Source of the DNA: Oceanicoccus sp. KOV_DT_Chl
Lineage (GTDB): Bacteria; Pseudomonadota; Gammaproteobacteria; Pseudomonadales; Dasaniaceae
Assembly (NCBI RefSeq): GCF_900120175.1
Contig: NZ_FQLF01000001.1
Span: 434,001 to 498,000 of the forward strand
Direction of reading: 5' to 3'
DNA length: 64,000 nucleotides
The translations under genes and the position numbers were made by a program. A model generated the notes under the pieces. The model made no database searches. It saw nothing but the letters and a program-made list of their open reading frames with translations, and was not told where the DNA came from. Positions 7,761 through 34,855 of the stretch are shown here, in pieces (position 1 is the stretch's first letter; every line of letters begins with the position of its first letter).

Positions 7761-7785
7761 CTTAATGGTAATGTCAGTCGCCGTA

Positions 7786-8109: not shown

Positions 8110-8232
8110 TTCGGTCTTGCCTCTTTCAATATATGTTCAGCGTTCTAAGGAAGCTTGGGTCGTGATTTGTTAACGGCGCGTAGTCTAGCACTAGAATTTT
8201 AAAATGTAGACTGATTTTTGGCTAAACAATTG

Positions 8233-12748: not shown

Positions 12749-12764
12749 GACGATACCTACATTA

Positions 12765-12800
12765 AATTGAGATAAAATATCATGCGATTTTATCGCAATT
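12765..12800. promoter_or_regulatory. Inverted-repeat operator of the AbiE-like operon
   Basis: AATTGAGATAAAAT (12765-12778) and ATTTTATCGCAATT (12787-12800) are inverted copies, 13 of 14 bases matching, with an 8-bp spacer. The element lies 16-52 bases upstream of the antitoxin ATG. AbiEi antitoxins are known to repress through paired inverted repeats, so this is a likely autoregulatory site; its function here is inferred. Confidence 0.7.
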
Positions 12801-12896
12801 AAAGGAGTCTAGCACAGATCTAGTCGCGAGAGGTTTAATAATAACTATCTGATGTAAAGGGTGCTGGAGGGATGTGATTAAACTCGACGCCATAAA

Positions 12897-12925
12897 AAAG
12901 CCGATGGGCGTTAACCATCGGCTTT
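12897..12925 (-). terminator. Rho-independent terminator of the phosphate-binding-like gene
   Basis: AAAGCCGATGG (12897-12907) pairs perfectly with CCATCGGCTTT (12915-12925), loop 7 nt. On the minus strand it is followed by TTTATGG, so it ends the transcript of the gene at 12949-13383. Confidence 0.85.
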
Positions 12926-12948
12926 AGCGTAGGTATTTGGTTTAGCGG

Positions 12949-13383
12949 TTAAAAGCGGTGTACCACTTTAACGGCATCCGTGACTTTGGATGCATCAATA
13001 TAGCCCACCAGGTTCGGGTTGTTAGATACCGACTCCACCATTGCTTCGTCAGATGCCGCCTGTAACGGTGCAGTAGCTTTGCCCGTAAACACTAATCGTC
13101 CCCAGTAGGATTTCATTTGTGCATCCGACTTGCCGACAAAATCACTATTGAAGGTTGATCGTGTTGCGCTGCCTTCAGGCAGCTCGACAGGCGTTGCTGC
13201 GTTGCCGTTGCTGAAGGCTTTCACTTTACCAAGAAAAATGCGTTTTAATAACGTTGGGTCATCAGCGCCGGCATTACTCGGGTGAACGATAATAGCGATC
13301 TCTGCATAGCTACTGGCTGGTGCAGCCAAGCCGACTATTAACAGCAGTGACGCAAGCAGTGTATTCAATTTAATGTTGTTCAT
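12949..13383 (-). CDS. Periplasmic phosphate-binding-like (PstS-like) protein, short
   Basis: A 144-residue exported protein. The N-terminal signal (MNNIKLNTLLASLLLIVGLAAPASSYA) is followed by EIAIIVHPSN, then LLKRIFLGKVKAFSNGNAATPVELP and NNPNLVGYIDASKV, which match the PBP-like fold of PstS-related proteins. At this length only about half of a full PstS is present, so it is one of the short single-domain relatives rather than a transporter component; no pst permease genes are nearby. The ATG at 13383 has a good AAGGGA site and lies 10 bases after the porin gene. A longer frame upstream overlaps the porin and is unlikely. Confidence 0.75.
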   Translation of the reverse strand: MNNIKLNTLLASLLLIVGLAAPASSYAEIAIIVHPSNAGADDPTLLKRIFLGKVKAFSNGNAATPVELPEGSATRSTFNSDFVGKSDAQMKSYWGRLVFTGKATAPLQAASDEAMVESVSNNPNLVGYIDASKVTDAVKVVHRF

Positions 13384-13393
13384 AGCGCGTCCC

Positions 13394-14608
13394 TTAAAAT
13401 ATAAAGTCAATAGCAACTTGGATGGCATCGGTATTATCGTCATCGTTTCCAAACCGTGGCGTAGCAGCACCAGCCGTTTTGGTGTCGTCGCTATACATGT
13501 GGTATTCCATCTTCAAGCTGGCGGAGGGGTGAAAATCATAACGGGCGCCGACAATGATGGTGTTTACATCGACAACGCTACCGCCTGCATCTAGCAGCGC
13601 TAAATTAGAACCTTGATCTTTAAACTCCTGGACGGAGTAGGTGAGGTGTGGTGTCCACATTCCCATCGTGTAAGCGGCAGAGACGAACCAGGCCGCGTCA
13701 AGATCATTAGCCAGTTTTGCATCCGGGATAGGGCCTGTGCCAAGTGAGCCGGCTGGCAAGCCTGCTAGTTCCTCTGCCGTTTCATAAGAGAGATTAGGAG
13801 CGGTTGTCTCATACCAGGTGTATTCGGCAACAATAAACAGGTTGTCGCTGGGGCGTAACTTAACGGCAGCACCGAAGTATTCTGCGTTGAAAGGGGATAG
13901 CTCTAGACCACCGCCTACATCGCCCTGGATATCAAACTCTTCATATTTAAAACCAGCAAGCCTAAAGGTGGCCCAATCGTCCAGAGTGGCTTCTACTGAG
14001 CCGCCCCATACTCTATAGCTTAGAGGGTTGTCGCTGCCATAAGCGTTTTCGTCATCAGTGAGCCGGCCAAACAATACATTAGAGCTAACCTCCCAATCAC
14101 CATAGAAATCCTGATACATCAGGTTAACCCCGTCATACTTATTGGCAGGGACTGAGTAAACATCAGCCGGTGGACGAATCCAGTGGTAGGTGTAGCCAAC
14201 ATCGATTGAATCGGTGTAGCTATAAATCGGGATCAATTTACGGCCAGCTTGCACCTTTAAGGTTGGCGTCAGGTCGTAGCTCAAGTATGCCCATTCAATC
14301 TTGGCATCCCAGCTATCGGCGCCAGCGGCTTTAATTTGTACGGTGGCATTTAAGCCGTCACCGAGGTTGGAACTCGCTTGCAAAGCAATGATCGATAAAG
14401 CATCAAAGGTTAATTTGTCGTCAAGGTTGCCGTTTTGGTCGCTACTAACGCCTGCGATGGCATTCGTTCGGTAAACCGAATCACTGTCCAGGGTTTGACC
14501 GACACCAATTGTGCCGAAGCCGCTCCAATTTATATCCGCGGCATGGGCTGACGTTGTTAAACAGCATGCAGCTATTAACGATCCCACTTTTTTTGAAAGA
14601 TTATTCAT
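13394..14608 (-). CDS. Outer-membrane porin-like beta-barrel protein
   Basis: 404 residues with a cleavable signal ending SAHA-ADINWSGFGTIGVGQ. The rest shows alternating hydrophobic strands with aromatic girdles, and the final residues IQVAIDFIF end in phenylalanine as required for BAM-dependent insertion. It resembles proteins annotated as porins in marine gammaproteobacteria; substrate is unknown. The PstS-like gene follows 10 bases downstream and the chemotaxis receptor lies 93 bases upstream, all in the same direction, so the three may sense and take up one anionic nutrient. Confidence 0.8.
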   Translation of the reverse strand: MNNLSKKVGSLIAACCLTTSAHAADINWSGFGTIGVGQTLDSDSVYRTNAIAGVSSDQNGNLDDKLTFDALSIIALQASSNLGDGLNATVQIKAAGADSWDAKIEWAYLSYDLTPTLKVQAGRKLIPIYSYTDSIDVGYTYHWIRPPADVYSVPANKYDGVNLMYQDFYGDWEVSSNVLFGRLTDDENAYGSDNPLSYRVWGGSVEATLDDWATFRLAGFKYEEFDIQGDVGGGLELSPFNAEYFGAAVKLRPSDNLFIVAEYTWYETTAPNLSYETAEELAGLPAGSLGTGPIPDAKLANDLDAAWFVSAAYTMGMWTPHLTYSVQEFKDQGSNLALLDAGGSVVDVNTIIVGARYDFHPSASLKMEYHMYSDDTKTAGAATPRFGNDDDNTDAIQVAIDFIF

Positions 14609-14701
14609 GCAATACCCCTAATCATGTTGGTAAATAATAGGTATGGCTTCGGCATCAAGTTCTGATACCTGGACATACGCACTATAGTTAACGACGACTA
14701 C

Positions 14702-16321
14702 TTAAACTTTAAATTGACGACCTACATCGCCCAGTTGCTTTGAGAAATTTTCTAATGAATGAGTGAGTTCATCCGCCTGCTGAATGGCTTTAATCGATAT
14801 ATCAGAGGCAGACTGCATGGCTGTGACATTATCTTTGATCGCCAGTGAGGTATTACTCTGCTCCTCAGTGGCTACTGCGATTTGATGGTTCATATCGTTG
14901 ATAGACGCAACCTTGGTAGTGATTTGTTCCAGCGTGCTGCCGGTTTTTTCCGCTTGTGACACACTGTCTTCCGCGCGTGTTTTACTTGTCTGCATGGCTT
15001 CCACCGCCATTTGGGCGGCGTCCTGCAGTTGCTCAATAACTTTTTGAATTTCCTGGGTCGATTGCTGGGTGCGTGATGCCAGCGTGCGGACCTCATCGGC
15101 CACCACTGCAAAGCCGCGACCTTGCTCACCGGCGCGGGCGGCCTCAATGGCCGCATTCAGTGCCAGCAAATTGGTTTGTTCGGCAATACCGCGGATCACA
15201 TCCAGAATTTGCGCCACGTTGTCAGTGTCTGATTCCAGCTTGATAATAATTTCAGATGCAGAAGTAATTTCTAATGCCAGCTCACCGATGGTGCTGACGG
15301 TTTTGTTAACAATTAACTGGCCTTCTTTGGATTCTGTATCGGCATCGGTTGCCGCTGTTGCCGCATCGGATGCATGGGTTGCTACCTGACTAACGGTCAC
15401 AATTAGTTCATCAATCGATTGTGTGACGGTTTCGGCAATGCGGTATTGTTCACTGGATGCCGATGACGATTCTGAAACCATCGAGCTTAATTGTTGCGCC
15501 ACAGTCGATAAAGGCTCAATCACTGAAATAACTTCGCCCATCGTTTTGTGTAGCTTGTCCACAAAATGATTGAACCAGTAAACAAGATCACCCATCTCGT
15601 CTTCAGTTTTTTGCTCTATACGCAAAGTGAGGTTGCCTTCGCCCTGTGCAATATCTTTCAATGAATCGGTAATGGCCGTGAGATTATTGGTAATCATATA
15701 GACAATGCTAAAGGAGATCGTCAGGAGCAGAACAATAACCAGTGCGCCAATGAGAAAGCCCATTTTGATAGCATTGTCAGTAGCCGCTAGAGAGTCCGCT
15801 AAAACCTGCTCAAACATTTTAAGGCTATCGCTATGAAAATTTTTGAAATTCGTTTTTGCAGTAGTTTGTAAGGTGTTTTTACTTTCAACCAGACTGTTGA
15901 TAGCACTGAAATCTACAGTGCCGTCGATCATTGATAAGGTTAATTTATATGCATTATCAAAATAGTTATTTAGCGACGAGGCCATGGTGTCGATTTGTTT
16001 TTTGCGGCCAGGCTCTAACTTTGATAATTCATCAAGCGAAGCAAGAATGGCGTTGCGGGTGTTTTGGGCGCTAGTGGCCATTTCCATCTCGCCATTAGAA
16101 ATAGCAATATTGAGCAGCTCATCAATTCTTTCCAGTAACACAATATTCGACGCGGCTTTTTCCAATACCGGAAAATAAACACTGCCTATAGATGCCATGC
16201 GCGCTTCATTGGCTTTGGTTACGTTGTAGTTAATGCCCAGATAAAGAATAAACCCGAGAATAGCTACAGCTGGGATAATAAAAATTTTGTACTTGATAGA
16301 TAGGTTTTTTATCCACTTCAT
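14702..16321 (-). CDS. Methyl-accepting chemotaxis protein
   Basis: 539-residue transmembrane receptor. A first membrane helix (about 12-30) is followed by a periplasmic helical sensor domain (about 31-190), a second helix (about 191-213, [20 protein letters not shown]), a HAMP domain and a cytoplasmic signalling coiled coil. The hairpin tip reads [20 protein letters not shown], the conserved CheA/CheW contact. There is no C-terminal CheR pentapeptide. It relays a periplasmic signal to the flagellar motor. Its position before a porin and a phosphate-binding-like gene hints at its ligand, but that is only inference. Confidence 0.93.
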
Positions 16322-17027
16322 TTAATAGTATCCCTTATCAATAAATAAGCGTTTCATTATTAATGAGCGCAGGATGTTTAAGTTGCTAACTGCGACAATT
16401 TATAAAACAAAGTTTTATGATTGGCTGTTTTATGCAATAGTAAATATATCGACCATATAACCGATAAGTGTAGTAACAATTTTAAAAAACGACTATAGGC
16501 ATATCCACATACTGCTTATGTTAAAAAGCAAGTATATACACCTGTGCTTATAGTAATAAGTACTTATAAAAGCATCGCGGGAGTGGTCAGTGTTGTTGTG
16601 TTCTGGATAGTAATCTCTTTAGTATCAGTCATATAAGTGTCCAGGATTGATACCTTGCAGGCACAGTCGTAGCCACCTTTTTTTCGCAAATGCAATAGAT
16701 TTACATTCAGCGTTAATATTTGGATTGATGCTATTCATACAAAGAAAATTGAATTCAGATAGATAAACCCTGATTAATTTTATCCAGAATTTTTTATTTT
16801 TGAATTAAAACGGCTTTTTTTAAACTTAAAAATCCGTGGCGCGGGACATGTAGTCTTGTGAAAGTAGTAGCTAATTGGTCTTTAACACTATTGAAGCAAG
16901 GAGGCTATCAGTTACAAGCTGTTAGGGCGCTAGCCTAAGGCGACGAAATGGGTAACAGGGGTATTTGGGGTCGTACACTTGTCAGATTCAATCATAGTAA
17001 ATAGAGTACTGTATCAATAGAGTAATA
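16322..17027. other. 706-base intergenic region, AT-rich, no gene seen
   Basis: Mostly AT-rich sequence between the divergent chemotaxis receptor and BLUF genes. From about 16900 to 16980 composition becomes GC-richer (GGAGGCTATCAGTTACAAGC, then GGGCGCTAGCCTAAGGCGAC), which might be a structured leader. I compared it with cyclic-di-GMP and other common riboswitch cores and found no match. No ORF is convincing. Confidence 0.4.
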
Positions 17028-17483
17028 ATGTTAAGTCATGTATTAATGGAACCACAGGCACCTATGATCCACCTTATTTACAGCAGTCATTCACATAACG
17101 CACTCAGTGCCATTGATGTTGAAAACATATTAAAGAGCAGTCATCGCAATAATCGACAACTGAACATAACGGGGATTTTATTGTACCAACAAGACTTGTT
17201 TTTACAGGTTTTGGAAGGCCCCGACGATGCCGTACGTGAGCGCTTCGAGATAATCAAACAGGATCCACGGCATGACAAAGTTGAAGTGCTGCAGGAATAC
17301 ACCATTAGCCAGCGAGACTTCCCTGATTGGGCGATGGGTTTTAAACAAATTGGCAGCCATGTAAGCCCGGCTCTTCTCAGTGAGGCCAGAGTCTTCACGT
17401 CGTTAGCTGATTTAATACCCGAGGTCAGAAATGAAATGACGCGGGATTATCTGTCCTCTTTTCAGCGCTTGTTATTTTCTTAA
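17028..17483 (+). CDS. BLUF-domain blue-light photoreceptor
   Basis: A short single-domain BLUF protein that binds FAD and responds to blue light. The pattern IHLIYSSHSHNAL has the flavin-contacting tyrosine, HRNNRQLNITGILLY has the conserved asparagine, FLQVLEGP has the glutamine, and DFPDWAMGF has the late Trp/Met region. The domain fills about residues 14-110 and a helical tail follows. No output domain is fused, so it must act through a partner. The first ATG (17028) is used here; MIHLIYSS at 17064 is equally plausible since no start has a strong ribosome site. Confidence 0.88.
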   Translation: MLSHVLMEPQAPMIHLIYSSHSHNALSAIDVENILKSSHRNNRQLNITGILLYQQDLFLQVLEGPDDAVRERFEIIKQDPRHDKVEVLQEYTISQRDFPDWAMGFKQIGSHVSPALLSEARVFTSLADLIPEVRNEMTRDYLSSFQRLLFS

Positions 17484-17510
17484 TCAGCAGACGGTATTTT
17501 TCACTGGGGG

Positions 17511-21824: not shown

Positions 21825-22553
21825 ATGGTTTTGGTTGCGGGTTTTGAATCATTAGGTTTCCAACAATGGCTGCAAAGTATTGGTAAGGCTGAAAAGACCG
21901 CCAAGAATTATGCGAGCGCGATAGAAGGCAGTATCAGCCATTGGGCTATTGACGCTGGCTTGGTTAACACAAAACTCAATCTCATCACAGAGCCTAGTCA
22001 GTTACATCCACTGCTTGATCCCATTCAGCAACTACCCACCTTTCAAGAAAAAAACACCAAAGGCAAGGGCATGTACAGCGCGGCTTTGCGTCAGTACGCT
22101 GAATATTTAAACGACATTACCGGTCAGGTATTGCGTGATGACATTGAACAAATCCTCAGTAACAACACCATTACCGCCACCGATAAATCAGCACTGGTCA
22201 ATACCCGCATCGGTCAGGGCAAATTTCGCAGTCAATTAATTGAACAGTGGCAGGGATGCGCGGTTACTGGTTATCGGGATGTGCGTTTTTTGGTCGCTTC
22301 GCATATTAAGCCTTGGTCAAAGTCAGAAGACCAAGAGGGATTGGATATGTTCAATGGCTTATTGTTATTACCTAATTTGGATAAGGTGTTCGACCTTGGC
22401 TATATAACGTTTGAAGAGTCAGGCACAATCCGCATCTCACAACAATTAGAAGATTATCGTACATTAGGAATAGAGCAGGGGATGTCAGTCAGCGTACATA
22501 CAAAGCATCAGTCTTATTTAGCCTTCCATAGGGAGTGCCAATTTAGGCCTTGA
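21825..22553 (+). CDS. HNH endonuclease (restriction-type)
   Basis: 242 residues. The C-terminal half is an HNH_2-type nuclease: CAVTGYRDVRFLVASHIKPW, then MFNGLLLLPNLDKVFDLGYI, giving the His-Asn-His core. The N-terminal 120 residues are helical and look like a DNA- or target-recognition part. Such genes are common in defence islands and next to restriction systems. GAGGGG precedes the ATG. The stop TGA overlaps a possible TTG start of hsdR and is 6 bases before its ATG, so it is probably the first gene of the hsd operon. Confidence 0.85.
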   Translation: MVLVAGFESLGFQQWLQSIGKAEKTAKNYASAIEGSISHWAIDAGLVNTKLNLITEPSQLHPLLDPIQQLPTFQEKNTKGKGMYSAALRQYAEYLNDITGQVLRDDIEQILSNNTITATDKSALVNTRIGQGKFRSQLIEQWQGCAVTGYRDVRFLVASHIKPWSKSEDQEGLDMFNGLLLLPNLDKVFDLGYITFEESGTIRISQQLEDYRTLGIEQGMSVSVHTKHQSYLAFHRECQFRP

Positions 22554-24520
22554 TAATTATGACGCCACCACCCACCGACAAACTTGAAATCCAAACCCGT
22601 GAAGAGATTGATGAAAAGCTCATCGCTGCAGGTTGGTCAGTTCAAGACAAAAAACGCATTAACCTACACGAATCAATAGGCGTTGCTGTCCGCGAATTCG
22701 ACACTGACACCGGCCCCGCCGACTACATGCTGTTCATCGCAGGACGTGCCTGCGGCATTATCGAAGCTAAACGCGAAGGTGCCAGCCTCGGCCACGTTGC
22801 CGAACAATCTGCTCGTTATGCCACCTCCAAAACCAAACATATCCAGCGCTGGGCAGCCGAAGATCAACCCTTGCCGTTCTTATATGAGGCTACCAACCAC
22901 GTTATTCGCTTTCGCGACGAACGCGACCCAGTCACGCGTTCGCGCAATATTTTCCATTTTCACCGGCCAGAAACCTTAAAAGACTGGTTAGAACAAAACG
23001 ACACCTTTCGTGCTCGCTTACAACAGCTACCCGCACTGAACACCACGGGACTGCGTGATTGCCAAATCGAAGCCGTTAACGGTATCGAAGCCTCCCTCAA
23101 ACAAGGCAAGCAACGCGCCTTGCTACAAATGGCCACCGGCGCCGGTAAAACCTTTACCGCCTGCACCGAAGTCTATCGCCTAGCTAAATTCGCCAAAGCT
23201 AAGCGCGTCTTGTTTCTGGTCGATAGAGGCAACTTAGGTCGGCAAGCACACAAAGAATTCCAGCAATACACCACCCCTGATGATGGCCGCAAATTCACCG
23301 AGCTCTACAACGCCCACATCCTCGGCCCCGGTGGCATTGGCGATGAAATCAAAGTCACCATCTCAACCATCCAGCGCATGTACTCACAACTGTGCGGCAA
23401 AGAAATGGATGAAGAGATAGAAGAGCATTCCACTTTTGAGATGGGCGCCAGCAGCACTGTCGCGCAGGAAGTGGTCTACAACCCCCATATCCCCATCGAG
23501 ACATTCGATGTCATCATCATCGATGAATGCCACCGCTCTATCTACAACCTGTGGAGCCAAGTGCTCGATTACTTTGACGCTTTCTTAATCGGCCTTACCG
23601 CCACACCCACCAAAAAAACCATCGGCTACTTTCACCAAAACGTGGTGTCGGAATACACCCACGAAGATGCCGTCATCGACCGCGTTAACGTCGGTTACGA
23701 CATCTACCGCATCAAAACCGAAAAGTCCGAACAGGGCGGTTTAATGGAGGCCGGCACCAATATCGAAGTGCGCGACCGCCTCACCAAACAAAAACGCTGG
23801 GAGCTACTCGACGAAGACGAGCAATACCAAAGAACCCAGCTCGACCGCAGCGTTATCGCCCCCAACCAAATACGCACCGTCATTCAAACCTTTAAAGACC
23901 GCTGCCTGCCCGAATGCTTCCCCGGCCGCAGCTGGGTACCCAAAACCCTGTTCTTCGCCAAAGACGATGACCACGCCGACCGCATCGTTGATGCCATCCG
24001 TGAGGCCTTCGGTGAAGGCAACGACTTCTGTAAAAAAGTTACTTACCGAGTCGGCAAAAAAGGCGCAGAAGAAACCATCCAGGAATTTCGCACCAGCCCA
24101 CGCCTGCGCATCGCCGTCACCGTCGATATGATAGCCACCGGCACCGACATCAAACCGCTGGAATGCTTAGTGTTTATGCGCGATGTCCGCAGCCAAGCTT
24201 ATTACGAACAAATGAAAGGCCGTGGCACCCGCGTCATCGGTGACGACGTACTGCTTAAAGTCACACCCGATGCCCCCACCAAAACCCGCTTTGTGCTGGT
24301 CGATGCCGTCGGCGTTACCGAAACTGACAAAACCGAAACCAAAAGCCTTGAGAGCAAACCCTCAGTTACTACCGAAAAGCTCATGCAACAAATCGCCATG
24401 GGGGATAGAAGCCCCGAAAGCCTGCAAACCCTAGGCAACCGATTAATCCGTTTAGATATGAAGCTCAGCGACGGCCAGCGCAAACAAATCAATAAATTGT
24501 TAGAAAAGATAATGGGGCAT

Positions 24521-24553
24521 CCTCTCCCTGAGGGAGAGGACCGAGGAGAGGGA
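24521..24553 (+). repeat. Palindromic repeat inserted in frame in hsdR
   Basis: CCTCTCCCT (24521-24529) and AGGGAGAGG (24531-24539) form a perfect 9-bp palindrome, followed by ACCGAGGAGAGGG. It is translated as HPLPEGEDRGEG, a low-complexity peptide known from a widespread bacterial repeat. It falls in the linker before the EcoEI C-terminal domain. Confidence 0.8.
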
Positions 24554-25186
24554 ATAAAGGTAACAGAAGAGGCGAACTTAACCCTCGTCGCCGCTAAATT
24601 AGTACACGCAGGCAATACCGATTTTCTCGCAGAAAAACTCAAAGCCCAATACGGCAGCGATGAAGTCAGCGACGAACAACGCAAAGCCGTTTACGAACAT
24701 TGGCCGACGCCGCCATCAAACCCTTCCATAACCCAGATTTGCGCGAACTGCTAGAAACCCTGCGCCGCGACACCGATCAACTGATCGACGACAGCGCCGA
24801 TGAATTACTAGAAGCCGGTTACGATGCCGAAAAAGCCCAAGGCATCATCACCCGCTATGAAAGTTTTATTAAAGAACACAAAGACGAACTCGACGCCATC
24901 CAGCTGATCTACGCCAAACCCTACACCCAGCGCCACCTAAGCTATCAGCAAATCGAAGACCTAGCCGACGAAATCAAACAGCCCCCCTACAATATCGCCC
25001 CACTAGAAGTGTGGAAGGCCTACGAGCAACTGGAAAAAGCCAAAGTCAAAGGCGTACCCGCCAAAGAACTGCTCACCAATATTGTCAGCTTGATTCGTTT
25101 CTCCACCGGCTTAAGTGAAGTGCTTGAGCCATTCCCGGAATTGGTGAATCAGCGTTTTGAGGCTTGGTTAGAGCAACAATCCCAAG

Positions 25187-25215
25187 CCCGTCATTCCCGC
25201 GAAGGCGGGAATCCA
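25187..25215 (+). repeat. GTCATTCCCGCGAAGGCGGGAAT palindrome inserted in frame in hsdR
   Basis: ATTCCCGC (25193-25200) and GCGGGAAT (25205-25212) form an 8-bp hairpin. The insert is translated as RHSREGGNP, the peptide signature of a common intergenic palindrome. It lies in the HsdR C-terminal domain between LEQQSQA and FTVEQQQW. Confidence 0.85.
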
Positions 25216-25402
25216 TTTACAGTAGAACAACAACAGTGGCTGCAACGCATCAAAGATCAAATCGCCAATAACGCCGAATTTGAAATGGATGATTTTGAAA
25301 TGATACCTGCCTGTAAAGAAGAGGGGGCTTGTTAAAGGCGCAAAGTTTATTTGGGAAAGAATTACCTGTGATAGTGCAGGAACTTAATGGGTATTTGATT
25401 GC

Positions 25403-26802
25403 ATGAGTGAAGTTGAAGCTGACCCAATTCTGAAAATATTGGAGACCCGGCGCTTTGTTTGGGAACAGCATGAGCTTGAACGTTGGGAGAGGCGGGGATC
25501 GCTTCCTAAGACGGAAGCTTGGAAAAATAAGTACAAAGAGCCATTAGGGATCGAAGACGATAATCTCGATGATCTACCCAAAAATTGGTTTTGGGCTTCA
25601 GTCTCTCAAGTCGGATTTGTGATTAGCGGTCAAACACCCAAGGGGATTGCCGATATCGCCGGAGAAAGCGGAACCCCGTGGTTCAAAGTCGGGGATATGA
25701 ATACGGACGGGAACGAGCTATTCATTCATAAAGCAAGCACCTATCTTACTGTCGATCAGCTGAATTCATTGAAACTGCATGTTCAGCCAGAGGGTACAGT
25801 GATATTCCCTAAAAGAGGCGGGGCAATAGCTACTAACAAGAAAAGAATCCTTTTTCAGCCTAGTGGTTATGACTTAAATACGATGGGGGTTTACCCCGTT
25901 GGGGTTGAGCAGAAGTATTTTTGGTATTGGTTTCAAACAGTTGATCTGGGTGTTATTGCTGACGGGGCGATAGTGCCACAAATAAATCATGGGGATATTG
26001 AGCCGTTATTAATACCTATCGCCCCACCCGAACAACAAAAACGCATCGTCGCCAAAATCGAAGAACTCTTCTCCCATATCGACGCCGGCATAGCCGCCCT
26101 CAACAAAGCCAAACAACTTCTCAAACAATACCGCCAATCCGTCCTCAAAGCCGCCGTCACAGGCGAACTCACCAAACAATGGCGTGAAGATAATAATATT
26201 TCATTAGAGGGTTGGCAGCAATCTTCTATTGGTGAAATAGCAGTGGTTCAAACAGGGAAAACACCAAGGCGTTCGAATCCAGAATTCTGGGATAACGGAG
26301 ATATACCGTGGTTGACTAGCTCGGCTACAAACAACGCATACACTCATCATGCAGAGCAGTTTGTTACACAAGCAGCAGTTGATGGTGGCTTAAAGCTGTT
26401 TGGTTCGGGGACTTTGCTGTTGGCAATGTATGGAGAGGGTAAAACCCGGGGGCAGGTAACTGAGATAACCTTTCAAGCAACATGTAATCAAGCTTGTGCT
26501 GCCATTATTGTTGATGAAGAGAAGGCAAGTAAGGCTTATGTACGTCTTCGACTACTAGAAAATTATGAAGAAACAAGAAAGGCTGCTTCAGGCGGAAATC
26601 AGCCAAACCTAAATTTATCAAAGGTTCGCAATATTACCTTGCCTTTGCCTGCATTGGCCGAACAGTCGGTAATAGTCTCAGAAGTCGAAAATAAGTTTGA
26701 TGCTATTGATCGGTTAGCAAATGATATAGGGGCTCAGCTACTTAAAGCAGAAAAAATAAACAGTCGATTTTAGCTTCGGCTTTTTCAGGGAGTTTAGGGT
26801 GA
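25403..26802 (+). CDS. hsdS: Type I restriction specificity subunit (frameshift near C-terminus)
   Basis: Target-recognition subunit shared by the methylase and restriction complexes. Target-recognition domain 1 (about residues 55-200) is followed by the conserved spacer helix PPEQQKRIVAKIEELFSHID...LLKQYRQSVLKAAVTGEL, then domain 2 (about 270-420) and a second spacer. The first ORF stops at 26773 after KINSRF. Adding one A to the six-A run at 26751-26756 instead gives KQSILASAFSGSLG, the normal HsdS ending, with a TGA at 26800-26802. That stop overlaps the helicase GTG start as GTGA. The full protein is 466 residues. The two recognition domains are AT-rich and the spacer is GC-rich, consistent with domain exchange. 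Confidence 0.92.
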
Positions 26803-29532
26803 AGATAGAAGATGGAAAAGATTTTGGTGTGCATTCTGATCTAATAGAAAAATTACTTTCTCGTGGATTAACTGAGTTTACATTAGCTCAACAACAGGCT
26901 TTGAAAGGGGGCTTGGTGTCAGGAGAGAGTCTGTTTATCTCTGCGCCAACCTCAGGCGGGAAAACTACAATTGCAGAAATAGCCGCCGTCCAAACTGCGC
27001 TCAAAGGTGGTAAGTCAGTTTATCTTCTCTCCCATAAGGCTTTGGCGGAAGAAAAATATAAGTTATTCAGCGAAGTTTACGGTGATAAAGACGATAAATG
27101 GTTTGATGTGGCAATATCAACTGGTGACCGTATTGAAGGTGGTTGGAATAACGGAATACTTGTCGCAACATACGAGAAGTTTCTTTCAATGGTCTCTACT
27201 TCAGATGACCTTGTTATTGATGGTGTATTAGTTATAGCTGATGAAATACAGCTTTTAAATGACGAGTCTAGAGGGGCAGATGTAGAAACGTTATGTACTA
27301 AGATTAAATTAAGTGATCCTGCGCAGCTTATTTGCTTAAGTGCGACAGTGAATAATTCTAATGAGTTGGCAAGCTGGATTGGAGCTACAGAGATTCGTGT
27401 TATTGAAAGAGATGTGCCTTTGTCTCAGCAAATATGGTATCAGGGCTCTGGGTTTGAGTGTGATTTCGGAGAAGAGGAAATCAAGGAGATGAGAGGGGGC
27501 TCCCATCCACCACTATAGATGCTTGCCACCACTTACTCAAAGAAGAGTTTGGCCCTGTTTTGGTCTTTACCATGACCCGCAACAGGGCGGTTCAATTGGC
27601 TGAGGAATTTTCTGCCCAATTGCAAAAAGATCCTCAAGGGTTCCAGTTTTCTTCTCAGCTTGATTTCTTTTCAGAACCAGTAACTTTATCAAGATCTTTG
27701 GGGGGAGTGTCTGAAAAAAGAGTGGCTTTCCATACAGCAGACCTATCGCTCGATGAAAGAGAGTTGGTTGAAAAAGGGTTGTTGGATGGTTCTTTCGATA
27801 TTGTATTTGCCACGCCTACACTAGCAGCTGGAGTCAACTTCCCTTTTCAGACAGTGCTATTTGACTCATTCGAAAGGCCCTGGGTGCCTAATAATCGCTG
27901 GCTGCCTAAGGATGAATTCCAAAATATGTCTGGTCGTGCCGGTAGGCTTGGAATGCATTCTAAGGGTTATTCTGTTTTGCTTCCATCAAATCGTGCTCAA
28001 CAAATTCAAGCAAATAATTTAATTGGGAATGAAAAGGTAGATGTTTCATCAAAGTTGATTGAAAAAAGTTTAAGAAAGTTAGTTTTGAATATATTTTCAA
28101 GCAGGGTTGCAAACACTAGAAAGAGTATTGCTGACTTTTTTGAGAATACTTTTTGGTGGTATGAGCAGTCTGAAAAAAATCCAGAAAAGCTAAGGGTTTT
28201 ACCTGGAAAAATTGATGAGTCAATTCAATGGCTTCTTGATCAAGGTTTTATTCAGTTCGAACAAGACTATTATTTTGCGACAGACCTTGGCGTAGCCACA
28301 GCCAGGGTTGGCTTATTGCCGCCTACGGTAAGAGAGGTCGTGGATGTTGTTAGCAATAATATCCAGGTCTTTAGTGGTGGCGTCGAAAATTGGGTTATTG
28401 GTTTGATTCACGCTATTTGTGCCTCTAGTGATTTTGCTGAGGGCGGGCAGCGATTTTTACCGTTTGCAAGAGGCAATAGACCTGAGGCAAAGGCCACCAG
28501 ATTCCTAAGAGGCAATAATTTGTTTTTGAATATTAATGCGTCAAATATGCCTGATAAAGTTCAGAATGCTGCCTATGCCATTAGCCTTTGGATAGAGGGT
28601 GTTCCTGAGAGACAGTTGAGTCATGAGCTGCCAGCAATAACATATGGTTATATGCAGAGATTAAGCGATGATGTGGCTTGGGTTCTATCGGGACTACAAA
28701 CAGTCCTCTCCTTACCTAGTTTAAATATCCCTGAGAAATTCTTAACAGAGCTTTCTTTGGTTGTTGAGAGGATAAAGTTCGGTGTTCCTGTAGACCTTGT
28801 TGATTTGGTAAAAATAGCTAGGTCTGAGCGTGTGCCTGGGTTTGGGAGGCACAGGGCTATGGTTCTTAAGGCTGAGGGTTTACATGATCCAAATTCTCTC
28901 CATTCTATTGATGTTAATAAACTCAATTCGGTGCTTGAAAATCCGGATAGAGTGGCTGCCTTGCTTAACGCTATCGCAAACTATCTAGATAAGCCATTAA
29001 AGCGTTGGGAAAGAGAGCATTCCCAGAGAGCAGAGGTTGTTGGGATCGATAAACAGTTAATTACTGATTCTTATGAACTTATCGGTGATGATTACGAAAC
29101 CCCGATAGAGACTTTGCTTAATTTAGTACAAGGCTGGGTTGTTGAAAAAATAGATGACTTGAAGCGCCAAGGTGTGCCGGATTTCCAGATATGTTGTGAT
29201 GGACGTACAACCCTTGTTGAATGTAAGACAAAGTTGAAAGAGGGGCTCTTGTTTCTAAAGATGACGCATTTGCTGTTTTGATTAAGGGCGCAGATATAAA
29301 TTGTGATAGTTATTTGACTCTAGGCAAGCCTGACTTCGATGCGTTTTCTAAGAATAAGGCGGCTGGTACAACGAATGTATCTTTAGTAAGTCATGTTGTA
29401 TTTATTGAGTCAATTGTCAAATACTTAGAAGGTAAGATTAACGCGAGCCAGCTATTTGACTGGTTGGTTACACCAGGGCCTAAAACTTTAGATAACCTTG
29501 AGTTGGTTGTTAATCTATTAGTGGAAAAATAA
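26799..29532 (+). pseudogene. Superfamily 2 Ski2-like helicase with C-terminal PD-(D/E)XK-like nuclease domain (two frameshifts)
   Basis: Defence-type helicase of 911 residues when two single-G deletions are restored (27495-27499 and 29242-29245). Motif I is APTSGGKT, motif II ADEIQ, motif III LSATV; the second RecA domain has TRNRAVQLAEEF, VFATPTLAAGVNFP and NMSGRAGRLGM, the Ski2/Hel308-like motif VI. A helical region follows. The C-terminal 150 residues carry PDFQICCDGRTTLVECKTK, a D...ExK pattern of restriction-type nucleases. The GTG start overlaps the hsdS stop (GTGA) and the TAA stop overlaps an hsdM-like ATG (TAATG). So it is a built-in part of this restriction operon. It resembles Hachiman HamB in helicase type only. 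Confidence 0.85.
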
Positions 29533-29651
29533 TGTCAGCATCAGAAATAGTCAACAAAGTCGGGAGCAACGCCCACGTATTGCGCGATGACGGCGTAGGC
29601 TACGGCGATTACGTCGAGCAGTTTTTTCGTCAAACTTTGAGTAGTGAATAA
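29532..29651 (+). pseudogene. 5' remnant of hsdM (39-codon ORF)
   Basis: The first 30 codons match the start of the intact hsdM at 30675: MSASEIVNKV, then HVLRDDGVGYGDYVEQ. The conserved WNY is GSN here. After EQ the similarity ends and FFRQTLSSE leads to a TAA. The ATG overlaps the helicase stop (TAATG) and the stop overlaps the nuclease ATG (TAATG). The DNA identity to hsdM is about 80-85 percent, so this is an older or foreign allele rather than a fresh duplication. It may be translated as a small coupling peptide. Confidence 0.8.
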
Positions 29652-30669
29652 TGGCAAGGTATTCAGACCCTACATTACGCGGGATGCTTCTTGAGGAAGC
29701 AATACTCTATATTCTGTCAAAGACAGGATACACGCCAATCTTTGAGAAAAATGGGGACTCTTCCCTTAATGATGGCTCGTCAGGATTAGAAATATATGGC
29801 AGGGGTGCCAAACATCAAATTGATGCTGTCGCTGATTTTCAGTATACGCCGCCATTCTGTAACCAGCAGAGATTGTTGATAGAGGCAAAATTTAAAGACT
29901 CTAAGACAGGCATTGAAATTGTTCGTAACGCGGCCGGTGTTCATAAGGATGTTTCGGAGTATTGGGTAGTCGATAACATCAGTGGGCGGAGGGTGGCTAG
30001 CAAAAGGTTTCATTACCTTTATGCTATTTTTTCAAAAGAAGACTTTTCAAAGCCCGCCCAGGATTATGCTTACGCGCAGGATATATTCCTACTGCCTCTC
30101 AAGAATAATACGCTTTTTCGCCCCATTATCTCAGCAATTGATGCAGTTAGTTTTGACGAATTAGACAATAAGCCAAAGCTATCAGTTGTGCGGAAGTTAG
30201 TGAGAGATCAGCTTTTCGGTGATTACAGACAAGCTGATTTTGTGGATGAGGATGATGATCTATTTGAGTATAGGGGCACTTGTTAGAGTTCATTGGTGTT
30301 TGTAGGCAGCGAGGAAGTGGTTTTCTTACAATGTTTAACGGGAGTTTTCCCGTTTTTCTATCTGCTAGTCGCTCTATGGAAGATTTTGTATTCCGGGACG
30401 AGAATTATGTGCGAATTCGTGTTGGTGAAGCTGGGTGGTCAATAGAGTCAGAGGCTGGTGAAGAGCTATTCACTTTTGATTTACCCGAGGAAATATTTAA
30501 TAAATATCAGCGAAGTGGTGGTTTAACCCGAAGACAGTTACTGAATATAAAAGATACTCATATGAGTAGTTTTCATGTTTTTGTCTCTCAAGGTGACGAT
30601 TTGAAGTTGGTTAGTTTTAAACTTGATAGGAACTGGTTTCGTCAAGTTAGTCGGAATTTAGGTAATTAG
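29651..30669 (+). pseudogene. Mrr-like restriction endonuclease-fold protein (one frameshift)
   Basis: Restoring one G in the GGGG run at 30273-30276 joins two overlapping frames into a 339-residue protein. The first 150 residues hold a nuclease core: MLLEEAILYILSKTGY, then HQIDAVADFQYTPP and RLLIEAKFKD, giving the D...ExK site, followed by EIVRNAAGVHKDVSEYW. The C-terminal 120 residues (after EYRGHLLEF) form a separate mixed domain with no motif I recognise. It may act with the helicase upstream. It sits between an hsdM 5' remnant and the intact hsdM, 5 bases before the latter. Base composition is AT-rich, unlike hsdM. Confidence 0.75.
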
Positions 30670-30674
30670 TAATT

Positions 30675-32153
30675 ATGAGCGCATCAGAAATAGTCAACAA
30701 AGTCTGGAACTACGCCCACGTACTACGCGATGACGGCGTAGGTTACGGCGATTACGTCGAGCAAATCACCTTTTTAATCTTTTTAAAAATGGCCGATGAG
30801 CGCGAAGAGTCCGGCCAGCAAGTCGCCGTTCCTGCAAAATACAGCTGGTCAAAACTGGTCAAACTCGACGGTGATGCACTGGAAATTCAATACCGCCATA
30901 CCCTCGAAGAGCTGGGCAAAGCAGGCGGTATGTTAGGCACCATCTTCCGCAAGGCGCAAAACAAAATACAAGACCCGGCCAAGCTCGAACGCCTGATCAA
31001 AATGATCGAAAAAGAAGCCTGGTCAACCCTGCCGGTGGATGTCAAAGGTGAAATCTACGAAGGCCTGTTAGAGCGCAACGCCCAGGATGTAAAAGGCGGT
31101 GCCGGTCAATACTTTACCCCACGCCCCTTAATCCAGGCCATGGTCGATGTCATGCAGCCCGATGTCATGGACACCGTCGCCGACCCGGCTACCGGCACCG
31201 GCGGATTCTTACTCGCGGCCTATGACTATATGGCCCCCAAAGCCACCTCCAAAAAAGAACAAAAGCATTTACGCGAAAAAGCCCTGCGCGGTAACGACAT
31301 CGTCGATAGCGTCACCCGCCTATGCGCCATGAACCTCTACCTCCACGGTATCGGCAGCGCCGACGGCGAATGTCCCGTGATCAGCCAGGATGCTCTAGCC
31401 AAAGAAGTCAGCGACAACGACCGCGTCGATATCGTGCTAGCCAATCCACCCTTCGGCAAAAAAAGCTCCATCACAGTCATCAGCGAAAAAACCGGCAAAG
31501 CCGAATCTGAAAAACTCACCTACGAACGCGAAGACTTCTGGGCCACCACCTCCAACAAACAACTTAACTTCGTCCAGCATATCTACAACATGCTAAAAAT
31601 CGACGGCAAAGCCGCCGTCGTAGTCCCTGATAACGTCCTCTTCGAAGGCGGCGCCGGCGAAACCATCCGCAAAAACCTACTAGAGCGCACCAACCTCCAC
31701 ACCATCCTGCGCCTCCCCACCGGCATCTTCTACGCCCAAGGCGTAAAGGCAAACGTCATCTTCTTCGACAACAAACCCGCCGCCAAAACCCCCTGGACCA
31801 AAAAACTCTGGATCTACGACTTCCGCACCAACGTCCACATGACCCTAAAAACCAATCGCCTCAAAAAAAGCGACTTTGAAGAATTTATCAAACTCTACAA
31901 GCCCAATGACATTAAAAAACGCAAAGCGACTTGGGATGAGAAAAAGGGCGAAGGCCGCTGGCGCAGTTACAGCTATGATGAAATTGTAGCCAGAGATAAA
32001 ACCAATTTAGATATTTTTTGGTTGAAGGATGATGCGCTGGAAGATACCGAGAATTTGCCTGCGCCTGAGGTGTTGGCTGCTGAGATTGTTGAGCAGTTAG
32101 AGGCAGCGTTGGAGGAGTTTAGGTCTGTTGAGGAAGTACTCATACGTGAGTAG
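30675..32153 (+). CDS. hsdM: Type I restriction modification methylase subunit
   Basis: N6-adenine methyltransferase of the type I complex, 492 residues. The N-terminal helical domain (SASEIVNKVWNYAHVLRDDG) is followed by the SAM motif ADPATGTGGFLLAAYD and the catalytic motif IVLANPPFGKK. The C-terminal part contains the usual RTNVHMTLKTNRLKKSDFEEF and ends near the HsdS contact helix. Codons are rich in C at the third position, as in hsdR. The stop lies just inside the start of the DUF5677 gene. The order R-S-helicase-nuclease-M is unusual, since hsdM usually precedes hsdS directly. Confidence 0.95.
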   Translation: MSASEIVNKVWNYAHVLRDDGVGYGDYVEQITFLIFLKMADEREESGQQVAVPAKYSWSKLVKLDGDALEIQYRHTLEELGKAGGMLGTIFRKAQNKIQDPAKLERLIKMIEKEAWSTLPVDVKGEIYEGLLERNAQDVKGGAGQYFTPRPLIQAMVDVMQPDVMDTVADPATGTGGFLLAAYDYMAPKATSKKEQKHLREKALRGNDIVDSVTRLCAMNLYLHGIGSADGECPVISQDALAKEVSDNDRVDIVLANPPFGKKSSITVISEKTGKAESEKLTYEREDFWATTSNKQLNFVQHIYNMLKIDGKAAVVVPDNVLFEGGAGETIRKNLLERTNLHTILRLPTGIFYAQGVKANVIFFDNKPAAKTPWTKKLWIYDFRTNVHMTLKTNRLKKSDFEEFIKLYKPNDIKKRKATWDEKKGEGRWRSYSYDEIVARDKTNLDIFWLKDDALEDTENLPAPEVLAAEIVEQLEAALEEFRSVEEVLIRE

Positions 32154-32943
32154 CCAAGGTAGGTTAGTTGAATTACAGGAGGCAAATGATGCAATTGCGT
32201 TTTTATGGATAACGACAATTTCTGAGAAACATGTCCAAGATAAGACTCAGTATAAAGAGTCTTTTTCAGCATTAGTTGGTTTGCTGACAGCAATTAATGG
32301 TATGGCAGATGTCATCACCGATCTTAAAGAAGAGCACCAAAGATATTCAAGTGTAGTTTTGTATCGATCATTAATAGAGCATTTCCTTAAGTCGACATAC
32401 ATAACTGTAAAGGCTGGCTCGGAAAGATCTGACCAAGTAGGTTTTGATTATAATTGGTACTGTCGGTACACAGAGGCATTACAATACGGGAAAGGTATTA
32501 AAGAAAGCCTAGAGCTAACGCATAAGGTCAAAAGCAAGATGAATATTAAACGTATAGCTAGGGAGTATTTTGATTATATGGAGGGTGTTTCAGAAAGAAA
32601 AATTGATAAGCTTACCTCTTCCTTTAGTTACAAGAACATTATTAGGTACATAAGTAGTCATAAATCCGGGATTGTCGGTAAAGATAGTCCGCTTTTTTCA
32701 GATATGATAAAGATATATCCCTCTCTTTCTTCATATGTACATGGAGGTGTTAGCGCGGTATCAGATATGAATTTTAAAAGCTTCGATGATAAAAATTATC
32801 TTCACGATATTCCTGAATCCTCGCTGTTGCTTTGTATGTTCTCAAAGGCAAGTATGCTTTCTTTACTTGGTTTGGAATCAAAAAATATAAGCGAGGTTGG
32901 AAAAAAAGCTAGTGAGATATTTCTTTCTGTTGCCGAAGATTGA
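32146..32943 (+). CDS. DUF5677-like protein at the end of the hsd operon
   Basis: 265 residues when started at GTG 32146, which has AGGAAG at 9 bases spacing and overlaps the hsdM stop by 8 bases; a TTG at 32128 would add six residues. The protein is alpha-helical, with SSVVLYRSLIEHFLKSTYI and a late SSYVHGGVSA motif, as in DUF5677 proteins, where a conserved H-G pair is near the C-terminus. Related proteins often lie in defence islands and may be nuclease- or HEPN-like; this is not established. AT-rich, unlike hsdM. Last gene of the coupled operon. Confidence 0.7.
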   Translation: MSSQGRLVELQEANDAIAFLWITTISEKHVQDKTQYKESFSALVGLLTAINGMADVITDLKEEHQRYSSVVLYRSLIEHFLKSTYITVKAGSERSDQVGFDYNWYCRYTEALQYGKGIKESLELTHKVKSKMNIKRIAREYFDYMEGVSERKIDKLTSSFSYKNIIRYISSHKSGIVGKDSPLFSDMIKIYPSLSSYVHGGVSAVSDMNFKSFDDKNYLHDIPESSLLLCMFSKASMLSLLGLESKNISEVGKKASEIFLSVAED

Positions 32944-33231: not shown

Positions 33232-33425
33232 AATTAAAGGGGTCGTAACGATTATTTATTGATCAATCGCCCACCCATTCTTCCCAAGTTTTAGGGTCAG
33301 GTCTTGATTTATGTATCGGAAAAAAACCAATTAAAGGGGTCGTAACGATTATTTATTGATCAATCGCCCACCCATTCTTCCCAAGTTTTAGGGTCAGGTC
33401 TTGATTTATGTATCGGAAAAAAACT
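33232..33425. repeat. 97-bp direct repeat, two tandem copies
   Basis: Two nearly identical copies start at 33232 and 33329 with AATTAAAGGGGTCGTAACG and end TTTATGTATCGGAAAAAAA. A third copy is at 35666-35752. On the minus strand the unit can be read as [16 protein letters not shown] and a stop, perhaps the tail of a lost transposase gene; that reading is speculative. Confidence 0.85.
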
Positions 33426-33431
33426 GGCGAA

Positions 33432-33823
33432 AACTGGGGTCAGACTCGAATTAACCTTGGATATTCTTACCTGCCTTCACTTAAAAGGTCTCGGACTATC
33501 CATAGATTATTTCGGCACAGGTTTTTCCTCGCTGTCACTGCTACACAAAGTTCCATTCACTGAACTAAAAATTGGTAAATCTTTTATTCAAAAAACTGGG
33601 GTCAGACTCGAATTAACCTCGGATATGCTTACCAGCCTTCGCTAAAAGTTATCGGACTATCCATAGATGATTTCGCACAGGTTTTTCCTCGCTGTCACTG
33701 CTACAAAGTTCCATTCACTGAACTAAAAATTGGTAAATCTTTTATTCAGGATATATGTGAATTCGAGTCTGACCCCAGTTGTTGTTATTCAGGATATATG
33801 TGAATTCGAGTCTGACCCCAGTT
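33432..33823. mobile_element. Composite MITE-like element with inverted repeats and duplicated EAL-domain fragment
   Basis: ACTGGGGTCAGACTCGAATT occurs at 33433-33452 and 33595-33614, and its reverse complement at 33760-33779 and 33803-33822. With one more base on the outer side these are 21-bp perfect inverted repeats. Each left copy is followed by about 140 bases coding a piece of an EAL phosphodiesterase domain ([20 protein letters not shown], then [12 protein letters not shown]). The second copy has small deletions that break the frame. The layout is left-fragment-left-fragment-right-right. No transposase is present. Confidence 0.7.
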
Positions 33824-33827
33824 GTTG

Positions 33828-34340
33828 TTAAGGGTATTGCAGGTTGATCGCTGTTTCTAGCGAGCTGCCGGTTAGCTTAATTTTGGCACCCTCATATTTT
33901 GGAAAGCCACTAGGTTGATAATTATTAGAAAAACCACTGCCTTCTTTCGGTTGTGGGAACGGTAAAAATTTCATATCCATTTTGCCATTGTCATTGGCAT
34001 CATGCAGCGCTTGAATCGCATAGTCGCTATCAGGTGCCAGACCTTCAAAAGTCACGGTTAAATTGGCGCCTTGTTCCAGTTTAAACTTGGTATTACGTAA
34101 TGCCTTTTTAGTTTTTAACCAGGTTTTTTCTTCCTTAAATAAGGTAACAATCATAGTGCCACCGTCTTTGATGTTTACGCCATTTAACGTAACGGTGATT
34201 TTGGCCTCACCAAGCACTGCCCCAGGGGCAGAAACCTCTCCACTAACAATGCTGGAATCGGCTGAGTCATGGCCGCCCGCTTGTGCCAGTAGAACAAAAG
34301 AGTATAGGCCTAAGGCCAATATCGCTGAAGCTATCTTCAT
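33828..34340 (-). CDS. DUF2141 secreted protein
   Basis: About 170 residues. A signal peptide (MKIASAILALGLYSFVLLAQAGG) is followed by a beta-rich domain with TMIVTLFKEEKTWLKTKKA and the diagnostic LHDANDNGKMD, then FGFSNN-like GSGFSNNYQPSGFP, all typical of DUF2141. These are periplasmic or surface proteins of unknown role. The start chosen is ATG 34340, since GAGGA lies at the correct distance; ATG 34346 is too close to that site. The stop codon lies inside the right end of the neighbouring repeat element, so the native C-terminus may have been altered. Confidence 0.8.
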   Translation of the reverse strand: MKIASAILALGLYSFVLLAQAGGHDSADSSIVSGEVSAPGAVLGEAKITVTLNGVNIKDGGTMIVTLFKEEKTWLKTKKALRNTKFKLEQGANLTVTFEGLAPDSDYAIQALHDANDNGKMDMKFLPFPQPKEGSGFSNNYQPSGFPKYEGAKIKLTGSSLETAINLQYP

Positions 34341-34346
34341 TACCAT

Positions 34347-34855
34347 TCCTCGATATCAATTAAGTGTGTTGCCTGGATGACTCGCATCGTACTCAAGTAC
34401 ATGTAGTTTGTCTTGAGCATTAATGTAAAAAAAAGAAAAGAGCAGAGAGTGGTATGGCGGCTGCATTGAGGCCGGTTTGGAATCAAAGTGGCAAGCACAA
34501 AAGCACAAAAGCACAAAAGCACAAAAGCACAAAAGCACAAAAGCACAAAAGCACAAAAGCACAAAAGCACAAAAGCACAAAAGCACAAAAGCACAAAAGC
34601 ACAAAAGCACAAAAGCACAAAAGCACGAAGTGCGTTGAACGCCTGCTTTATGAAAGGCGGCCCGAAGGGGATAAGCATATCGGGGCGTGGCGCTAAGAGG
34701 ATGCTTTGGCACTGGCTTAAGCGAACAAGGCTGACGGTCTTTATGGTTACCGAACTGAGCGGGTGAGTTGCTTCGCAAGGCTGAGTTAGCTGTTAAGGTG
34801 TGAGTTGTTGTTTGATACGTTGCAAACAGCCCGTCGGCCCTATAAGCTAGCAGGC
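34347..34855. other. Intergenic region with octamer repeat
   Basis: Contains the 16-copy 8-bp repeat (34499-34626). After it, GAAGTGCGTTGAACGCC and CGGCCCGAAGGGG match pieces of other dispersed repeats in the window. Open frames through the octamers on both strands are repeat artefacts. Confidence 0.6.
34499..34626 (+). repeat. Perfect 8-bp tandem repeat, AAAAGCAC x 16
   Basis: Sixteen exact copies of AAAAGCAC (128 bases), preceded by a partial unit at 34494-34498. Eight is not a multiple of three, so any frame crossing it would shift with each unit gained or lost. On the minus strand the unit is GTGCTTTT, the same octamer found once in the dispersed sequence CGCACTTCGTGCTTTTGTCC-like elements near 36060 and 53630. 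Confidence 0.97.

Follow-up and report, generated by a model that had tools for sequence, protein, structure and literature searches.

The 64,000-nucleotide stretch of Oceanicoccus sp. KOV_DT_Chl analysed here (the window, C1:434001-498000 of a 4.83-Mb genome) contains hsdR, hsdS and hsdM on the same strand in a single cluster, constituting a type I restriction-modification (R-M) operon of R-S-M gene order with an EcoEI-type HsdR (Table 1). Between hsdS and hsdM lie a gene for a Hel308-type helicase with a predicted C-terminal nuclease domain, a short second copy of the hsdM start (the stub) and a gene for an Mrr-like nuclease. The S-M junction of this R-S-M subfamily is probably a slot for defence cargo, which in the window has received two layers in turn. 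The observations behind this reading are the gene content of the operon, the stub, the occupation of the same slot in relatives, the hsdM stubs of genomes G301 and G170 and the relative of the window nuclease that precedes hsdM at locus L104. The helicase-nuclease would have arrived first, giving an operon of order R-S-helicase-M, and the Mrr-like nuclease would have followed attached to a new hsdM 5' end, leaving the start of the old hsdM behind as the stub.

Table 1. Operon features and frame breaks, in positions of the window (E-values follow the profile names).
Feature	Position	Strand	Evidence
HNH endonuclease gene, 242 aa	21825..22553	+	Pfam HNH_2 E 1.6e-11; PADLOC HNH E 1.6e-22
hsdR, type I restriction subunit, EcoEI-type C-terminus	22559..25406	+	Pfam ResIII 7.2e-38, EcoEI_R_C 7.1e-30
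hsdS, specificity subunit	25403..26802	+	Pfam Methylase_S 1.6e-25
Hel308-type Ski2-like helicase with predicted C-terminal PD-(D/E)XK domain, putative cargo layer 1	26799..29532	+	Pfam DEAD 1.7e-21, HTH_61 4.6e-9
hsdM 5' stub, putative scar between cargo layers	29532..29651	+	nucleotide match to hsdM start, translation
Mrr-like PD-(D/E)XK nuclease gene, putative cargo layer 2	29651..30669	+	profile match, relatives L015, L013, L008/L016, L104
hsdM, methyltransferase subunit, 492 aa, intact	30675..32153	+	84-85% identity to G301 hsdM
DUF5677 gene	32146..32943	+	Pfam DUF5677 1.1e-6
Frame break in hsdR	~24.70 kb		frame change in alignment of intact relative (L066 hsdR spans two frames)
Frame break in hsdR	~25.3 kb		read from the sequence
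Frame break in hsdS, close to gene end	~26.77 kb		read from the sequence
Frame break in helicase	~27.5 kb		frame change in alignment of intact relatives
Frame break in helicase	~29.24 kb		alignment with relatives
Frame break in nuclease	~30.27 kb		frame change in alignment of intact relatives

Relatives of the window hsdM (E 1e-150 or better) were found in 24 of 369 genomes of the same class and 15 of 398 genomes of the phylum (the own genome is counted in both surveys and two further genomes are shared), and 23 loci from the class and 12 more from the phylum were fetched, along with 10 of 41 plasmid records. The counted set consists of the 28 loci of R-S-M order (14 class, 8 phylum and 6 plasmid) in which positions could be assigned to both hsdS and hsdM; nine class and four phylum loci with hsdS missing, cut off or broken were dropped, as were plasmid locus L075, which has no hsdS, and three plasmids (43-46% identity) whose genes follow the common R-M-S order. 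A gap of at least 200 bp separates hsdS from hsdM in 27 of the 28 loci (median ~1.8 kb) compared with 4 of 25 for hsdR and hsdS (median -4; Fisher p 8e-10, kinship ignored). At L107 the slot is empty and hsdS and hsdM overlap by 4 bp, in line with the expectation of the initial annotation that hsdM belongs beside hsdS.

All 21 filled chromosomal slots hold at least one gene named by Pfam or PADLOC (48 proteins were scanned with Pfam and 16 with PADLOC, covering part of the slot ORFs (open reading frames) and including some that are not slot genes). A CBASS pair stands between hsdS and hsdM at L054:11143-13117 (cyclase, PADLOC E 2e-103; phospholipase effector, E 2e-98), DarT with a macro protein at L055, a DzbA/DzbB-like (Dazbog-like) pair with Abi_C at L058, and a PtuA-like ATPase with an HNH-like gene (Septu-like) at L070. 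The remaining slots contain GmrSD (L069), Fic (L060, L068), Abi_2 (L061), Schlafen/AlbA (L057, L063, L105), AAA/ParA-like (L059), NucS_C (L066), GIY-YIG (L062), TIR (L106), HEPN (L103), RES (L096), DUF4917/PDC-S21 (L102), DUF3800 (L073, L100) or PDC-M36A together with a relative of the window nuclease (L104), and those on plasmids are annotated as DUF262, GIY-YIG, AAA, HIRAN or hypothetical. Several scanned slot genes had no Pfam or PADLOC match, including the three of L051 (two before its first stub and one after). The window operon accordingly counts as one in which defence cargo is embedded, in the sense that the genes between the hsd genes differ among its relatives or, as at L107, are absent.

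Type I genes are frequent in defence islands (PMC12707154), and the four R-S gaps with extra genes would agree with ordinary crowding, in which chance neighbours accumulate with no slot and no role of hsdM in insertion. We regard this explanation as very improbable, because the excess of genes is confined to the S-M junction, the R-S junction being mostly a 4-bp overlap, and because hsdM 5' stubs sit at the cargo borders.

The stub of the window had been described in the initial annotation as an hsdM remnant; it is indeed derived from hsdM, but as a duplicate of the hsdM start that has since diverged, with hsdM whole downstream. It is an open frame of 39 codons comprising hsdM codons 1-30, nine unrelated codons and a stop. 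The first 90 nucleotides agree with the hsdM start at 80 positions, whereas the runners-up elsewhere in the window score 42/90 on the + strand and 43/90 on the other; judged against these scores the likeness exceeds chance. Seven codons differ between the two copies and four of the seven differences are synonymous, suggesting that the stub is another allele of a once-working hsdM rather than a fresh copy. The TAATG that joins helicase and stub would then be the former helicase/hsdM junction.

A second copy of the resident hsdM was sought within 8 kb in 36 loci, window included, and 5' stubs turned up in three of them, namely the window (codons 1-30), G301 at L051 (codons 1-109 and 1-29) and G170 at L071 (codons 1-66, in pieces with inserts). 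Short hsdM matches in L104 (repeat-like) and L053 were excluded from this count. The 5' stubs start at codon 1, have the same orientation as hsdM and sit between or ahead of cargo layers. In G170 the order is GmrSD, stub (42 bp downstream of GmrSD), an AbiEi-AbiEii pair and hsdM; in G301 it is two unnamed genes, stub, an unnamed gene with a Fic-like piece, stub and hsdM, the second stub lying directly ahead of hsdM after a Fic C-terminal piece identified by eye. Cargo would enter by one-sided homologous recombination in hsdM; such an event would produce the stub pattern of these few cases if its other end were joined within the resident hsdM. We tentatively suggest, as a possibility rather than a probability, that the hsdM start is the entry point, so that modules bring an hsdM 5' end, recombine one-sidedly and leave a stub, and the operon keeps a record of its layers.

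Three of the four stubs break at codons 28-30, and a common break there would suggest that one breakpoint or site is preferred. One and the same short element comes after the hsdM break at both L051:8640-8775 and L071:12930-13185, in genomes of two families (local score 43 between G301 and G170, best of 200 shuffles 27), and an extra copy occurs at L071:18183-18208; the shared breakpoint may thus be the target of a small repeat rather than of cargo entry. Sliding identity of hsdM to that of G301 (63-85% per 150 columns) gave no clear step of the kind expected of a chimaeric hsdM. Behind hsdM of L070 a 3' hsdM fragment (L070:8188-9138) is 75% identical to the window hsdM, closer than the intact hsdM next to the fragment (55%), as if a newer operon had replaced an older one. 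Two genes lie downstream of the G301 hsdM (L051:5001-7148), one for an HNH_2 protein of 308 aa and one for an Mrr_cat protein of 313 aa.

The first cargo layer had been annotated as a Ski2-like helicase with a C-terminal nuclease domain, a fold now supported by the model of a relative's domain. The two main pieces of the window helicase have Hel308-type best matches in NCBIfam (E ~1e-39 and 4e-44, under the curated cut-offs), and a profile of the five intact relatives (L014, L020-L023; ~900 aa) matches Hel308 in the PDB at E 2e-78 over positions ~1-711 and HamB at 6e-22. The relatives extend ~190 residues beyond the helicase part with an invariant PD...ExK motif that is also present in the window copy. 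The C-terminal 166 residues of the L022 relative were modelled from an alignment of six sequences with a pLDDT (predicted local distance difference test score) of 90, a result that describes L022 and not the broken window copy. VIA-align placed R.BspD6I2, FokI and Nt.BspD6I at the top (Z 12.0-13.3 over 145-160 of the 166 residues), compared with Z 6.1 for the Hna chain, and Foldseek returned one match under E 0.001 (best E 7e-4). The helicase C-terminus is thus predicted to adopt a FokI/BspD6I-type nuclease fold, the structural match extending over most of the domain. The full-length helicase model is poor (pLDDT 58.6), and its Foldseek match to Hel308 was counted only alongside the sequence match.

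At E 1e-10 the helicase was detected in 4 of the 369 same-class genomes, namely the own genome, one with a close relative (G163, the L019 contig) and two with weak matches, and a helicase piece found no match in phage records at the same threshold. Six helicase loci came from the species collection (L019-L024). In L019, a 7.3-kb contig, the gene lies beside transposase-like genes; two neighbours scanned in L020 have no Pfam match; the gene stands beside an AAA_15 gene in L021 and a methylmalonyl-CoA mutase gene in L023; and in L024 it is split into two ORFs beside a TIR gene. The L022 helicase is near AbiE genes and a Phd antitoxin followed by hsdR and hsdM, and is the only one of the six with hsd genes in the fetched DNA (R, S and M profiles), ~0.9 kb off across the Phd gene. 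The loci with no hsd neighbours suggest that this cargo may protect on its own. Distant plasmid helicases were set aside as relatives (33 records, all <60% identity; 22-31% among the 20 listed; three with at least 80% coverage). Four of their loci were fetched (L009-L012), and among the three tested for hsd genes (L009, L010 and L012) an hsdM-like gene (E 5.5e-8) was found only in L012, annotated beside a XamI enzyme.

The second cargo layer had been reported as a 211-aa nuclease (29651-30286). The nuclease gene is real, but that ORF is only its front part, and the 129-aa ORF at 30280-30669 is its C-terminal part. Profile A2, built from four sequences including the window's first piece, matches 29651-30238 and 30280-30648 at positions 1-200 and 213-341 of 348, and a relative at L015:12452-13501 is a single 349-aa ORF; judged by these alignments 29651-30669 is one gene of ~340 aa (~350 aa in relatives) with a broken frame. 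An HQxD...EAK motif is conserved in the nuclease and its relatives. The L104 nuclease matches the Mrr-type family Mrr_cat (Pfam E 1.3e-4, 22.5 bits, just above the cut-off of 21), whereas the window pieces have no Pfam, PADLOC or NCBIfam match up to E 0.01 and the L015 and L013 nucleases no Pfam match; unlike Mrr-type nucleases, the family carries ~150 extra C-terminal residues. The L013 relative, on a Priestia plasmid, is annotated 'restriction endonuclease'.

Among 115 genomes of the same order the nuclease occurs in the own genome only, and its profile found no relative in viral contigs. It lies near restriction genes in four of four relatives, two of them in type I operons. At L015 it is directly behind hsdS in the order hsdR-hsdM-hsdS-nuclease; at L104 it occupies the S-M slot directly before hsdM and behind the PDC-M36A-like gene; at L008/L016 it lies behind a small gene and a type III restriction subunit of 910 aa (PADLOC E 2e-207); and at L013 hsdS and hsdM are ~5 kb away on the other strand. 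A recurrent companion of several kinds of restriction operon, it would suit the role of an accessory restriction nuclease.

The initial annotation held that helicase and nuclease act with HsdR, HsdS and HsdM as one composite system. In a machine of this kind the two would be HsdR/S/M subunits or obligate partners that widen the range of targets or degrade HsdR-cut DNA. The stop/start overlaps along the operon, the position of the nuclease directly behind hsdS (L015) or before hsdM (L104) and the proximity of the L022 helicase to hsdR-hsdM agree with such a machine, which we nevertheless regard as unlikely. Five of the six helicase loci, one being the 7.3-kb contig, show no hsd genes in the fetched DNA; the nuclease accompanies a type III enzyme (L016) as well as type I operons in two different gene orders, a range that fits an accessory better than a subunit; and unrelated genes fill the same slot in relatives. 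Not one of 128 fetched loci (the window and seven excerpts of it excluded) has relatives of both helicase and nuclease, and the pair was found only in the window. Under the preferred reading of a cargo slot, HsdR, HsdS and HsdM would mark the host's DNA and cleave DNA that lacks the mark, and the cargo would work alone, not complexed with HsdRMS. By analogy with Hna and Hachiman, the helicase motor may load on single-stranded or forked phage DNA at replication and the FokI-like domain cut it, and the second nuclease may serve as an accessory restriction enzyme against DNA that escapes type I restriction.

The junctions themselves are as first described: ATGA lies at 25403-25406, GTGA at 26799-26802 and TAATG at both 29530-29534 and 29649-29653. 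The DUF5677 ORF has an in-frame GTG from which it overlaps the end of hsdM, stop included, by 8 bp (32146-32153). The junctions at 25403 and 26799 are present in the letters but need read-through of the breaks near the hsdR and hsdS ends, and the helicase end at 29532, though marked by TAATG, is reached only across the helicase's own frame breaks. The families assigned to hsdR, hsdS, the helicase and the DUF5677 gene were borne out by Pfam (ResIII/EcoEI_R_C, Methylase_S, DEAD/HTH_61 and DUF5677). The genes listed for the operon exist, but the HNH gene at 21825-22553 was missing from that list; its stop lies 5 bp ahead of the hsdR ATG at 22559 and it is possibly a further accessory nuclease of the operon. 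The operon genes would be co-transcribed. Promoter-like sites within the operon number 15 versus 20.3 in shuffles, an uninformative count.

As assembled, six frame breaks fall within ~5.6 kb (two in hsdR, one in hsdS, two in the helicase and one in the nuclease), so that open frames are not found for all three hsd genes, hsdR and hsdS being broken, possibly by assembly error. Runs of G are a frequent site of long-read consensus error. Runs of at least four G coincide with four of the six breaks; the breaks would fit either consensus error or real decay and cannot tell the two apart. A decaying island, with hsdR, hsdS, the helicase and the nuclease as pseudogenes, only hsdM and the DUF5677 gene whole and no phage restriction at present, has a small chance of being the correct description. 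The clustering of the breaks, next to open hsdM and DUF5677 ORFs, would agree with it, as would the finding that six of seven window genes checked outside the operon against the same-genus genome G802 are unbroken. It is countered by the G runs, by helicase pieces that span the relatives nearly end to end and by the seventh gene checked (~8236-10826, - strand), which lies outside the operon and is itself broken at ~8556 relative to G802, though with no such G run.

Several points weigh against the proposal of independent cargo in a slot. The tight splicing of the cargo into the operon could reflect functional coupling, and the presence of the nuclease by restriction genes in all four relatives makes a working tie to restriction enzymes possible, the L104 and L016 contexts in particular binding it more closely to restriction genes. 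None of the window's cargo genes has known anti-phage activity, and the DUF3800 and DUF4917 slot genes are of no settled function. Given the frame breaks, the genes as they now stand may no longer function, and 5' stubs were observed in only 3 of the 36 loci. The cargo has a G+C content of 41% compared with 51% for hsdR and hsdM, but with hsdS at 45% composition alone cannot separate it.

Searches for an RNA gene as island anchor identified none, either by Rfam (20.5-36.5 kb) or, for tRNA, by ARAGORN (whole window). Right after the operon, at 33232-33830, three neighbouring two-copy tandem duplications (97, 162 and 43 bp, two at 100% match) possibly represent an assembly artefact or an island repeat junction, and just 3' of the operon (34493-34626) is a perfect 8-bp tandem array, AAGCACAA x 16.8, with repeat-coded ORFs on both strands. 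The neighbouring ABC pair is present in G802 (78-79%), and in 34 kb fetched around that pair no other window ORF has a match. A dispersed repeat at ~14998-15210 takes 7 of the 11 matches of window 501-17500 in G802.

The embedding of defence genes in type I operons is already in print (mlo/rlo, PrrC, DarTG2 and TgvAB; embedded defences are also covered by Payne et al. 2024, via PMC11411939). Type I loci of C. jejuni carry mlo genes in the S-M gap and rlo genes in the R-S gap (Miller 2005 via PMC5183652). The mlo genes share the position of the window cargo, whereas hsdM stubs such as that of the window are unmentioned in the passages of PMC5183652 drawn on here, Miller 2005 being known second-hand. 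In an enteropathogenic Escherichia coli (EPEC) island DarTG2, a self-sufficient defence module, is embedded in a type I operon as the window cargo is, between hsdS and hsdR, and its authors suggest a recombination hotspot (PMC12255303); it differs in the S-R junction, in the order with hsdM first and in being a single module. The type I system of V. cholerae VPI-2 (Vibrio pathogenicity island 2) similarly embeds TgvAB, a GmrSD-type type IV enzyme whose own restriction is shown experimentally and for which complementary action is argued (PMC11411939); unlike the window cargo it is GmrSD-like, and its authors compare it with RloF, located between hsdR and hsdS. Another accessory defence gene embedded in a type I system, type IC EcoprrI, is PrrC, but it is an anticodon nuclease that senses anti-restriction (PMC12707154).

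Hna of Sinorhizobium meliloti, a superfamily 2 (SF2) helicase with a C-terminal PD-(D/E)XK nuclease (PMC13381803, PMC12445080), resembles the window helicase in being one chain of similar size with the SF2 motor first and the PD-(D/E)XK domain last. Hna is further characterised by abortive infection and an SSB-triggered ssDNA exonuclease activity. Membership in Hna was rejected on sequence (BLAST best E 0.15; hhalign probability 28% over 126 columns, first ATPase motifs only; the Hna gene was picked by pSymA position and domains from a record with no annotation), the Hna motor belonging to another SF2 subfamily than the Hel308-type motor of the window. Hachiman, named in the initial annotation as an example of a helicase/nuclease defence system, also combines a Ski2-like helicase with a nuclease, but its nuclease HamA is separate from HamB whereas the window domain lies within the helicase chain. 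This assignment was rejected as well: no HamA/DUF1837 was found by Pfam and PADLOC among ten operon ORFs (hsdM not among them), and the helicase resembles Hel308 far more than HamB. In PADLOC, where no Hel308 was seen, the L022 helicase matches the candidate PDC-M23B (2.6e-28) and then HamB (1.2e-22). The archaeal repair helicase Hel308/Hjm matches the helicase part (~1-711), to which the window protein adds its C-terminal nuclease domain.

To this literature the present analysis adds a subfamily-wide S-M slot, cargo that comprises a helicase-nuclease of Hel308 type and a nuclease linked to restriction genes, and the hsdM stubs that border such cargo; no report of such a helicase-nuclease or of hsdM stubs was found in a literature search, most subscription papers being outside its reach. 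The operon resembles a rack for spare defences more than one new machine. If the S-M gap is a general cargo slot, reading the contents between hsdS and hsdM would be a cheap route to new defence genes; the slot already yields CBASS, DarTG, Septu-like and Dazbog-like genes plus several unnamed ones, including the Hel308-type helicase-nuclease, and the stubs offer a way to test how defence genes accumulate.

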